Assembly: GCA_025464735.1 (NCBI GenBank)
Contig: JAODMX010000478.1
Coordinates: 1-9,718 of the forward strand
DNA: 9,718 nt
Direction of reading: 5' to 3'
From: Frondihabitans sp.
Lineage (GTDB): Bacteria; Actinomycetota; Actinomycetes; Actinomycetales; Microbacteriaceae
Below are positions 5,456-7,490 of this stretch, piece after piece. The notes beneath the pieces were generated by a model. The model searched no databases and was not told where the DNA came from. It saw nothing but the letters and a program-made list of their open reading frames with translations. The position numbers were made by a program, and so were the translations under genes. Every line of letters starts with the position of its first letter. Within the stretch, counting starts at the first letter, position 1.

Positions 5456-5467
5456 GTGACGCCGCCC

Positions 5468-5537
5468 GCTAAACCCTCGCTGTCGGCTGCCGCGGTGCGC
5501 CTAGGACCACCGCGGCAGCCGGCGGTGAGGGTTTAGC
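5468..5537. repeat. 70-nt inverted repeat (30-bp stem, 10-nt loop)
   Basis: The outer arms GCTAAACCCTC (5468-5478) and GAGGGTTTAGC (5527-5537) are perfectly complementary. So are the inner arms GGCTGCCGCGGTG (5485-5497) and CACCGCGGCAGCC (5508-5520). The 6-nt segments between them (5479-5484 and 5521-5526) differ as DNA at three positions, but in plus-strand RNA all six pair (G-U, C-G, U-G, G-C, U-G, C-G), giving an uninterrupted 30-bp stem. The loop contains CCTAGG (5500-5505), repeated just outside as GCCTAGGC (5541-5548). It fills the gap between the divergent Nudix-like and esterase genes. It may be an intergenic palindromic repeat, an insulating terminator or an unannotated small RNA; the sequence does not decide. 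Confidence 0.75.
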
Positions 5538-5543
5538 GAGGCC

Positions 5544-5555: not shown

Positions 5556-6191
5556 GTGCCCCCGATCGACGCCTCCGCCGTCCGCTGGTCCGTGCCGGAG
5601 TCCGAGCGGAGCGGCAAACCGCTGATGCTCCTGCTGCACGGGGTGGGCTCACACGAGGGCGACCTCATCGGCCTCGCCCCGTACCTCTCGTCTGCGTACG
5701 TCTACGCCTCGCTTCGGGCGCCGCTCCCGTACGGCGGCGGGTGGTCGTGGTACCCGCTCACAGAACCGGGTGCGCCCGACAACGCCGCAGTCGACGTAGC
5801 CGCCGACGAGGTGCTGGCGTGGCTCGACGATCTGCCCTCCGCGCATCCTTCGATTTCGCTCCTCGGATTCTCCCAGGGCGGTTCGCTCTCCTTGCAGCTG
5901 CTGCGCAAGAGACCCGCGGGCTTCGACTTCGCCGTGGTCCTCGCCGGGTTCGTCGTGCCGGGCGCTCCCGAGGAGGTGGACGCCGCGGTTGCGCGGGTCC
6001 GCCTACCGGTGTTCTACGGTCGCGGTGACGTCGACCAGGTGATCCCGGGCGAAGCGGTCGCACGAACCGAGGACTGGCTCGAGACACATACCGAAGCGGA
6101 GTCCACCGTCTACCCGGGACTCGCCCACGGCGTCTCGCAGGAAGAACTCGACGACGTCAACGCGTTCATCGGACGCGTGCACCCCGCCTGA
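5556..6191 (+). CDS. Phospholipase/carboxylesterase-family alpha/beta hydrolase
   Basis: A 211-residue single-domain serine hydrolase of the phospholipase/carboxylesterase (acyl-protein thioesterase-like) family. LMLLLHGVGSHEGDLIGLAP (23-42) supplies the oxyanion-hole region. The nucleophile elbow is G104-F-S106-Q-G108. The acid is D160 in GDVDQVIP (by analogy with GDCDPLVP of the family), and the base is H191 in LAHGVSQEE. All triad positions are present, so it should hydrolyse carboxyl esters or thioesters. There is no signal peptide, so it is cytosolic; the natural substrate is unknown. Length is normal for the family (about 200-230). The start is the GTG at 5556, chosen from the TAGGCT box 6 nt upstream. 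It stands alone as a monocistron, with a repeat-derived hairpin starting 3 nt after its stop. Confidence 0.9.
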   Translation: MPPIDASAVRWSVPESERSGKPLMLLLHGVGSHEGDLIGLAPYLSSAYVYASLRAPLPYGGGWSWYPLTEPGAPDNAAVDVAADEVLAWLDDLPSAHPSISLLGFSQGGSLSLQLLRKRPAGFDFAVVLAGFVVPGAPEEVDAAVARVRLPVFYGRGDVDQVIPGEAVARTEDWLETHTEAESTVYPGLAHGVSQEELDDVNAFIGRVHPA

Positions 6192-6193
6192 TC

Positions 6194-6219
6194 GGAGACA
6201 CGCCCCAGGGCGTGTCCCC
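6194..6219. repeat. Head-to-head repeat-end hairpin after the esterase stop
   Basis: GGAGACACGCCC (6194-6205) faces GGGCGTGTCCCC (6208-6219) around CA, complementary at 11 of 12 positions. The left part matches the right terminus of the compact repeat at 7032-7083 (GGAGACACGCCC in both), and the right part is the left end of the large element starting at 6207. It therefore looks like a relic end abutting a second copy. Lying 3 nt after the esterase stop, it may also act as its terminator, though without a U-tract. Confidence 0.6.
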
Positions 6220-6369
6220 GAATTGGTCGCAGGTGGTGGGTGACCCGGTCTCGCGGGCTGCAAGGCGGACGACGCAGGAGGCTGCTGCGCAGCCTTCAAG
6301 GAGGACAACGCCGCAGATCGCGCGATCCGGGCCGCCCACCACCCGTGAGGAATTGGGGGACACGCCCTA
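6207..6369. repeat. Large near-palindromic repeat element (about 162 bp), MITE- or REP-like
   Basis: The ends 6207-6240 and 6335-6368 are inverted copies of each other with 29 of 34 positions matching (AGGGCGTGTCCCC ... GGTGGTGGG against CCCACCACCC ... GGGGACACGCCCT). Complementarity continues inward through CCCGG, TCGCG and CTGC blocks to a central hairpin AGGCTGC-TGC-GCAGCCT (6279-6295), whose centre coincides with the centre of the whole element. The outer arm shares the GGGCGTGTC..CC.AATT motif with the compact copy at 7032-7083. There is no open reading frame of note and no transposase in the window, so it would be non-autonomous if mobile. Its last bases run into the -10 box of the SIMPL gene. 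Confidence 0.85.
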
Positions 6370-6380
6370 AGCTCACCGCT
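6368..6380 (+). promoter_or_regulatory. Candidate leaderless -10 of the SIMPL gene, at the repeat boundary
   Basis: TAAGCT (6368-6373) ends 7 nt before the ATG at 6381. Its first two bases are the terminal TA of the palindromic element, so the promoter is formed at the element junction. No -35 motif is recognisable inside the element arm. The same hexamer TAAGCT precedes the MarR start at the same type of distance. Confidence 0.45.
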
Positions 6381-7034
6381 ATGACGACATTCGTGGTCGC
6401 AGGCGACGCGGCCAGAGTCCACCCGGCCGAGCGGGGCACTATCCGGCTGGCGGTCACTCTGACGGGTGCCGACCGGTCGCAGGTGACCATCGACACCATC
6501 GCGACGCACAACGAGGTCGTTACCGAGGCGAGTGCACAGGAATCGCTGGGCGCCGTCATCAGGTGAAGCAGCGATCGGGTCTGGGCGGAAGAGTTCCAGG
6601 AGTACCCGCCGGGAAGCGACCAGTCCGTGCGACGCTTCCGTGCCCGCTCCACGGTCGAGGCCACTTTCGTCGACTTCACCGCGCTTGCCGAGTGGGTGAG
6701 CGACCTCGCGGGACGTGAGGGTGTGCACATCGAGGGCCTCGACTGGACCCTGACTACGGCAACGCAGGTAAAGCTCGAGCGCGAGGCCCGGATCGAGGCG
6801 GTCCAGAACGCTGTGACGAAGGCCGCCGATTATGCGAGCGCTCTCGACCTCGGGACGCCGACGCTCGACGCCGTGTTCGAGGCGGGCCTGCGCCCCGGGC
6901 TCGGAAGCGGTGGCGGCGCGTCCGTCGCACGAGCCAAGACGATGTCGAGTCCGGCCCACGACGGCGGCTCCTTCGAGCTCGCCCCGCGCGACATCGAGGT
7001 GACAGCAACGATCTCGGCGGACTTCACGCTGTAG
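6381..7034 (+). pseudogene. SIMPL-domain (DUF541) protein gene interrupted by an in-frame TGA
   Basis: The frame reads as one SIMPL-like protein of about 217 codons, normal for the actinobacterial family. MTTFVVAGDAARVHPAERG (1-19) is the typical N-terminal strand. Codon 62 (6564-6566) is TGA, and after it the same frame continues with SSDRVWAEEFQEY, FRARSTVEATFVDFTALAEWV, EGLDWTL, EARIEAVQNAVTKAADYASALDL and the C-terminal FELAPRDIEVTATISADFTL to TAG at 7032-7034. The missing residue is probably Trp, so one G-to-A change in TGG explains the break. Downstream restart at the GTG at 6627 (GGGAAG 10 nt before) would give only the C-terminal 135 residues. SIMPL proteins are poorly understood and some are linked to oxidative stress; most known ones are envelope-associated, but this type lacks a signal peptide. 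A recent pseudogene, sequencing error or readthrough are all possible. It is bracketed by palindromic repeats, and the downstream one supplies the TAG. Confidence 0.85.
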
Positions 7035-7083
7035 GGCGTGTCTCCCAATTGCTCGCCCGTGAGGAATTGGGAGACACGCCCTA
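7032..7083. terminator. Compact palindromic repeat, probable bidirectional terminator
   Basis: TAGGGCGTGTCTCCCAATT (7032-7050) and its exact reverse complement (7065-7083) form a perfect 19-bp stem. After a G-G mismatch, CTC (7052-7054) pairs with GAG (7061-7063) around GCCCGT. It lies between two converging genes: its first three bases are the stop codon of the SIMPL gene, and the MarR stop is 6 nt beyond its right end. That position, and the strong stem on both strands, suit a shared terminator, although no U-tract follows. The sequence belongs to the same family as the 162-bp element upstream, so it is both repeat and likely terminator. Confidence 0.75.
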
Positions 7084-7088
7084 GCCAC

Positions 7089-7490
7089 TCACACCCGCTT
7101 GAGCAGAGCCAGCAGCGTCACCCGCTCCTCCTCCGACAGGTCGCCGAAGAAGCCCTCGAACAGGTCGTCGACGACCGGCTGCGCGGACTCGAGCGTGGCG
7201 CGGCCCGCCTCGGTGAGGTGGTGCTCCACGCGGCGACCCTCGCCGGGCCGGCGCTCGACGAGCCCCTGCGCGACAAGACGCGAGGCAAGCGTGCCGAAAG
7301 CCTGGTCGCTCTGGAAGGTGCGCTCCGCGAGGTCGTGAGCCGAGGATCCTGGTGCTCTCGAAATCGCGCGAAGGGCGTCCCATTGCGCGAGGGTCGTGCC
7401 CTGCACCGCAAGCAGCCTTTCGATGGCGCGGTGGTGTCGCCACTGCGCCTGCTTCACTTCGCGGCCGAGTTCACCGAGGTCTGTCGCCAT
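7089..7490 (-). CDS. MarR-family transcriptional regulator
   Basis: A 133-residue winged-helix repressor. Helix 1 (about 8-29) is for dimerisation; TLAQWDALRAISRAPGSSAHDLAERTFQSDQAFGTLASRLVAQGLVER (33-80) carries the helix-turn-helix, and RRPGEGRRVEHHLTEAGR (80-97) is the wing with its conserved Arg and Thr-x-x-Gly. The C-terminal helices (100-133) complete the dimer. There is no cysteine, so it cannot sense oxidants through thiols as OhrR does; a small aromatic or phenolic ligand is more likely. The ATG at 7490-7488 has TAAGCT 6 nt upstream and no SD. It is transcribed away from the alpha/beta hydrolase at 7544, with a perfect palindrome between them, so it probably represses both. Its end is 6 nt from the hairpin at 7032-7083. 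Confidence 0.9.
   Translation of the reverse strand: MATDLGELGREVKQAQWRHHRAIERLLAVQGTTLAQWDALRAISRAPGSSAHDLAERTFQSDQAFGTLASRLVAQGLVERRPGEGRRVEHHLTEAGRATLESAQPVVDDLFEGFFGDLSEEERVTLLALLKRV

Follow-up and report, generated by a model that had tools for sequence, protein, structure and literature searches.

MITEs are usually defined by their ends, the interior being taken for a decayed insertion sequence (IS). Members of the IS427 subgroup duplicate a TA target. Repeats of the REP/BIME type are linked with a Y1 (RAYT) transposase, and the Correia/NEMIS repeats of Neisseria have TA-type ends and a length of about 155 bp. For IS5 itself the reported target duplication is 4 bp long and is printed as CA/TAG/A (PMC11677980). 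ERIC, also called RU-1 or IRU, is a 127-bp imperfect palindrome of enterobacteria, and Delihas (2007; PMC2759123) prints an E. coli sequence in which GCAAGGCGG and AACGC-A-GC flank a hairpin. YPAL (RU-2) of Yersinia is a 168-bp palindromic mobile repeat that is reported to lie at dyad symmetries or beside them and to influence RNA upstream (PMC2229807). In the main text of a 2024 review of prokaryotic MITEs the strings 'actinobacter' and 'streptomyces' are absent (PMC10969869).

The window, meaning the whole stretch of 9,718 nucleotides that was analysed, carries two hairpins with common ends. An IS5-type MITE, present in full-length and internally deleted copies, moved in trans and carrying a folded conserved core, provides the best explanation overall, with a probability of roughly 0.8. 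By its ends this is an ordinary IS5-type MITE. What is unusual is the interior, a widespread, covarying and unnamed module common to MITEs with different ends. The features, with the basis for each, are as follows.

6194-6205, plus strand: GGAGACACGCCC, identical to the 12 bases that end the element on its right (compare 7070-7081); sequence.
6206-6207, no strand: CA, left flank of the long element where a TA duplication is expected; sequence and TA-flanked relatives.
6208-6367, plus strand: long element, a 160-bp near-palindrome; bounds set by comparison with relatives.
6208-6224, plus strand: left terminal inverted repeat of the long element, GGGCGTGTCCCCGAATT; sequence, palindrome search and relatives.
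6250-6323, plus strand: 62.4-bit hit of covariance model R1, whose 20 source sequences include the window.
6260-6272, plus strand: left core face, GC-AAG-GCGGACGA; core alignment and invariance.
6279-6295, plus strand: apical 7-bp core hairpin, AGGCTGC TGC GCAGCCT; fold, with a matching helix that covaries in relatives.
6301-6314, plus strand: right core face, GAGGACAACGC-C-GC; core alignment and invariance.
6351-6367, plus strand: right terminal inverted repeat of the long element, AATTGGGGGACACGCCC; sequence and palindrome search.
6368-6369, no strand: TA, right flank of the long element; sequence.
7032-7034, plus strand: TAG stop of the SIMPL frame, formed by the TA duplication and the short element's first G; sequence and syntenic genes.
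7034-7081, plus strand: short element, 48 bp, with the same ends and the core missing; palindrome, fold and alignment with the long form.
7082-7083, no strand: TA, right flank of the short element; sequence.

Both hairpins had been recognized in a preliminary description, as a near-palindrome of 162 bp at 6207-6368 and a hairpin of 52 bp. They are present, with arms that are 83% complementary in the long form (6207-6248 with 6327-6368) and 96% in the short (7032-7054 with 7061-7083), but the elements proper are the 160 bp and, between the TA dinucleotides, the 48 bp given above. The proposal of a terminal motif common to both holds, with four matches in the window at three or fewer mismatches against 0.04 expected, as does the central 7-bp hairpin of the long form. 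The suggestion that the short form is the long form without its interior is borne out by alignment, in which a single block of 112 nt is missing and there are four mismatches. The short copy looks like an internal-deletion derivative of the 160-bp form. The long form was also said to fold as one unit. Folding of 6190-6380 as RNA gives z = -7.0, and of 7025-7090 z = -8.5, with none of 200 shuffles as good in either case; the long form folded as DNA gives z = -7.6. A palindrome of about 100 bp in another genome, G141 (locus L011, 1501-1602), resembles the Gordonia long form discussed below in its arms but has no core, and represents another apex-deletion form.

The short element is flanked by TA on both sides, the long element by CA and TA. 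The 12 bases that precede the long element (6194-6205) are a probable remnant of an older copy, judging by their match to the right end, and the long element was possibly inserted into the end of that copy. Both hairpins had been placed directly after a stop codon. This applies to the short copy, where the stop includes the element's own first base, but the long copy begins 16 nt beyond the TGA at 6189-6191. The intervening SIMPL gene had been called broken. The interruption of the frame (6381-7034) is real, but it is caused by an in-frame TGA at 6564-6566 and not by the hairpins, and a SIMPL match is retained downstream of it in 6627-7034.

Among the genomes searched the nearest relatives are in the family of G119, from which nine loci around the esterase gene were compared. 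In seven the esterase gene is followed by SIMPL with neither hairpin site occupied, and no SIMPL gene was found in the other two (L040 and L044). In six of these seven the SIMPL gene has a TAG stop and no element. The comparison of empty sites proposed earlier finds no element in any of the nine syntenic loci, and sequences resembling the ends, at two or fewer mismatches, are absent from loci L021-L048. A second, unrelated palindrome of 72 bp, GCTAAACCCTCGC...GCGGTGAGGGTTTAGC, occupies 5467-5538 of the window between divergent DUF4916 and esterase genes; a search of the other loci compared gave no match to GCTAAACCCTC.

Copies elsewhere identify a likely partner. A search of the genome collection with the right-arm pattern matched four stretches, two of which are palindromes of the same type, one long, in Gordonia polyisoprenivorans, and one short, in Rhodococcus triatomae. 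The Halapricum and Ardenticatenia matches have no matching palindrome. Two matches on Burkholderia plasmids show no core in the stretch examined, a Paenibacillus match has no core, and the long element has no match in phage records. The 17-base end pattern is found, in exact form, in five of 394 genomes from the same class. In G. polyisoprenivorans the same end closes a complete, TA-flanked, IS5-type insertion sequence of 952 bp, with two overlapping frames matching DUF4096, DDE domains and NCBIfam transpos_IS5_3, and this too sits at a TAG stop re-formed by its own first G. Its ends and those of the MITE in that genome agree at 16 of 16 bases. The corresponding values are 15 of 16 in G014 and 13 of 16 in G131, and such IS ends as could be delimited in G227 (9) and G244 (4 and 10) are unlike the MITE ends. 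TA-flanked inverted ends occur at only six of the 36 transposase or end loci examined. Of 17 genomes searched, 12 gave a DUF4096 match; none was found in G002, G071, G054, G012 and G036, of which G054 has the freshest copies.

The resemblance to IS5-family IS and MITEs involves the ends, the TA flanks, a CTAG-like target and the transpos_IS5_3 transposase of the partner element. The difference is that the interior is unlike the Gordonia IS beyond the ends and is common to MITEs with differing ends. An IS5-type transposase would mobilize the 160-bp element in trans, and on the evidence of the ends the element was probably moved by such a borrowed enzyme. Six copies of a AATTGGGAGACACGCCC end in G202 (L010, L014 and L017-L020) lie beside near-identical sequence, at least five of them clearly at or near contig ends, with no core by pattern; these are probably insertion-sequence ends.

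The TAG junction recurs. We count as MITE-type the 24 core elements flanked by TA left and right, a class selected for that feature and in which some members share a genome; flanking repeats are seen around 117 of 145, many by chance, and only the 24 were counted. They measure 156-162 bp in 19 cases and 172-184 bp in five, and have at least a dozen different ends, 20 beginning with GG and one further with G. Among the GG-ended copies, 15 have one edge or more falling exactly within a called gene's TAG stop, and in two of these both edges do so. In 557,228 bp of comparison loci, such stops account for 53 of 175 CTAG sites and 166 of 4534 TA sites. The excess is significant against the CTAG (p 5e-5) and TA (p 4e-18) backgrounds, with the caution that these values are rough, since the background was drawn from different genomes and the 20 copies do not all come from separate ones. 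CTAG is rare in GC-rich genomes and is often part of a TAG stop codon. Insertion splits the TA of the stop, and TAG is restored by the element's first G, so that the gene stays intact. Such re-formation explains how elements of this kind can accumulate at 3′ ends without gene breakage.

A single window does not reveal that conservation reaches most widely in the interior and not in the ends. A central motif is common to the long forms of different genomes, a core of about 50 nt that reads GC-AAG-GCGGAGGA, hairpin, GACGACAACGC-N-GC and lies between unrelated outer arms, which differ between copies yet pair. The pattern detected 19 copies in five of six genomes, and the reversed pattern none. 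The core begins with two paired bases, which are followed by a bulge of three bases, three further paired bases and an internal loop that is asymmetric; at its apex is a hairpin whose sequence is free. In the 76 rows of the alignment the faces GC-AAG-GCGGAG and CGACAACGC-N-GC show 96-100% invariance; the stems change with compensation around two unpaired faces that hardly vary. Among 75 distinct sequences, pairing is seen in 92.2% of cells, as against 66.7% when shuffled and 23-52% when slid by one to three columns, and the covariation score is 0.644 versus 0.179 shuffled and at most 0.145 slid. Changes on both sides are seen in 17 of 22 pairs, which five of 500 shuffles equal. These numbers lean towards structure, the alignment having been fitted to R1 with the 20 model sequences among its rows.

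The covariance model R1 was built from a 20-sequence alignment that included the window, and the score of the window (62.4 bits) is thus partly by construction. At E<=1e-3 it matched eight of 120 genomes of the window's family. Two matches (G464 and G411) look like chance on inspection, leaving six that are convincing. At E<=1e-6 there are matches in 69 of 296 actinomycete genomes (the same class), three of which (G001, G071 and G141) had supplied model sequences; 12 of the 69 have at least 16 candidates each, and copy numbers are lower bounds. None of 251 genomes of another phylum, that of G634, gave a match, which shows little as there is no known positive there. Five Streptomyces plasmid loci match R1, as do four palindromic virus contigs (L049, L052, L060 and L061; GC 0.30-0.62). 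In three of the latter, L049, L052 and L061, with GC 0.30-0.40, the core palindromes have quite different ends. These four are among 14 viral-contig stretches with the loose core pattern; the other ten were judged to be chance by eye, from an inspection that covered 13 of the 14, as was L088. G507 contains two cores in tandem, 86 and 99 bp apart (L121, 6864-7022; L124, 9017-9188).

In Rfam 15 the window region scored only far below the gathering score of any model, and the core in 20 loci had no match. A module present in 69 of 296 actinomycete genomes is matched by no Rfam family. In the open-access literature searched, no description of the core was found. Here the conserved part of a MITE is its interior and the ends are what varies, a pattern suggestive of some function for the passenger.

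What that might be is addressed by copies without TA-flanked ends, which we call settled. In G507, G440 and G479, 17 of 23 such copies lie within 24 nt of a neighbouring stop, in one orientation. A context table of 81 elements was compiled, with duplicates and elements having less than 300 nt of flank dropped and hairpin edges assumed to lie 18 nt from the R1 match. In the non-TA-flanked group, which includes the window's long element and some other MITE-like copies that fail the TA criterion, the stop of a right-hand minus-strand gene is within 30 nt in 33 of 49 cases compared with six of 26 for left-hand plus-strand genes (p 5e-4). Counted by genome the bias is 13 to two, one genome being tied (p 0.007). 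Along the gene-sense strand, settled copies read GCGTTGTCGTCGG, hairpin, CCTCCTCCGCCTTGC. The long element of the window, relative to the esterase gene, has the reverse of their usual orientation. Since orientation is kept in settled copies, the core may be read as RNA there, a suggestion we make cautiously. It is conceivable, at somewhat short of even odds, that the core is recognized by a host factor common in actinobacteria, likeliest in the 3′-end transcript, and selected in both mobile and settled copies.

A competing and less probable account is that the core acts purely as DNA, an extruded or single-stranded recognition hairpin, serving as a priming site or as the site of a structure-specific protein, that aids multiplication, or survival as a long palindrome, with no RNA role. 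The core folds equally well as DNA and is paired with different transposon ends, and the mobile, MITE-type copies display no significant orientation bias (10 of 12 compared with six of 11, p 0.19). The single prevailing orientation of the non-TA-flanked copies, on the other hand, is not what a DNA role predicts. A DNA-level function may nonetheless operate in the mobile form beside the RNA role suggested for settled copies.

Conservation of the core could also reflect mere common descent, the copies being recent members of one young, function-less MITE family. Three copies in G054 are 95.6-97.5% alike in different surroundings, which by sequence is recent spread; identities involving L172 (0.72-0.73) were excluded from this comparison, the palindrome there being read in the other orientation. 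Between genomes, however, the arms cannot be aligned, and this is difficult to reconcile with youth when the faces of the core are almost invariant and the stems compensate. We consider such descent improbable as the whole explanation.

It is more improbable still that the hairpins are intrinsic terminators or 3′-end stability hairpins of the host, grown in place, their likeness at the ends due to convergence or local gene conversion. Their stability and position after stop codons would fit, as would arms that in G507 and G440 differ from site to site and are unique to each. Relatives lack them, however, and TA flanks and IS-like ends are not accounted for. Nor is there a T-run. Between 6000 and 7200 there are no terminator-like sites (GC hairpin and T-run), and a promoter search of the same interval found none. 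For the earlier idea of a mobile terminator the indications conflict: the lack of such a site speaks against it, but the non-TA-flanked copies mostly lie just after stops and in one orientation.

A REP/BIME-like family moved by a Y1 (TnpA_REP/RAYT) transposase, also raised in the preliminary description, would likewise be palindromic, intergenic and repeated in other genomes, but it can scarcely be entertained for a 160-bp element with TA duplications when Y1_Tnp is found in none of 16 genomes, 12 of them with the core, against five of 14 in a control search, and when REPs measure 20-40 bp according to one account (PMC3733652).

The IS5-type MITE remains the preferred explanation. It agrees with the initial proposal of a non-autonomous mobile element, and the basis for mobility is the presence of copies in other genomes, the IS5-type ends, TA duplications and element-free relatives; stop-codon junctions and the conservation and covariation of the core are likewise observed. 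Points that weigh against it are the genomes in which no DUF4096 match was found, the unlike ends in G227 and G244, the small share of loci with TA-flanked inverted ends, the CA flank of the long copy and the reversed orientation of its core, and the non-significant orientation bias of MITE-type copies. The result named beforehand as counting against mobility, a lack of further copies or of covarying arms, did not occur; copies exist elsewhere and the stems covary.

The core was also compared with the other palindromic repeats, six sequences of four repeats being tried with a two-block core score and 3000 shuffles of each. Correia/NEMIS differs in having no significant core match (289 shuffles as good) and nothing significant with R1. 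YPAL/RU-2 has an unconvincing score (82 as good) and no TA ends (PMC2229807). For RU-3, 1063 shuffles were as good. ERIC, like the long element, is an imperfect palindrome, and its printed sequence has two halves arranged likewise about a hairpin. Two shuffles were as good as the printed sequence; for genomic E. coli and Salmonella copies the numbers are 122 and 142. The core pattern in ERIC was equalled by four of 20,000. Arms and length differ, and R1 gives the genomic E. coli copy only 10.6 bits, placing it first in its own locus and ninth among seven loci, with E values of 0.044 (1.9 kb searched) and 0.31 (12.8 kb searched). We regard a link between ERIC and the core as a lead and not a result. 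If it is true, then the nature and the mover of ERIC become directly testable. A broader proposition, which we think doubtful, is that the core, as structured RNA or DNA, is a module not confined to a single transposon family, that it was carried on MITEs with successive IS ends and settled in actinobacteria as a 3′-end regulatory hairpin to which a host factor binds, and that it is related to the central part of ERIC. As a minor observation on the records, NZ_CP119140.1 and NZ_CP119142.1 are 2.17-Mb sequences of Neisseria gonorrhoeae that are filed as plasmids and are of chromosome size.
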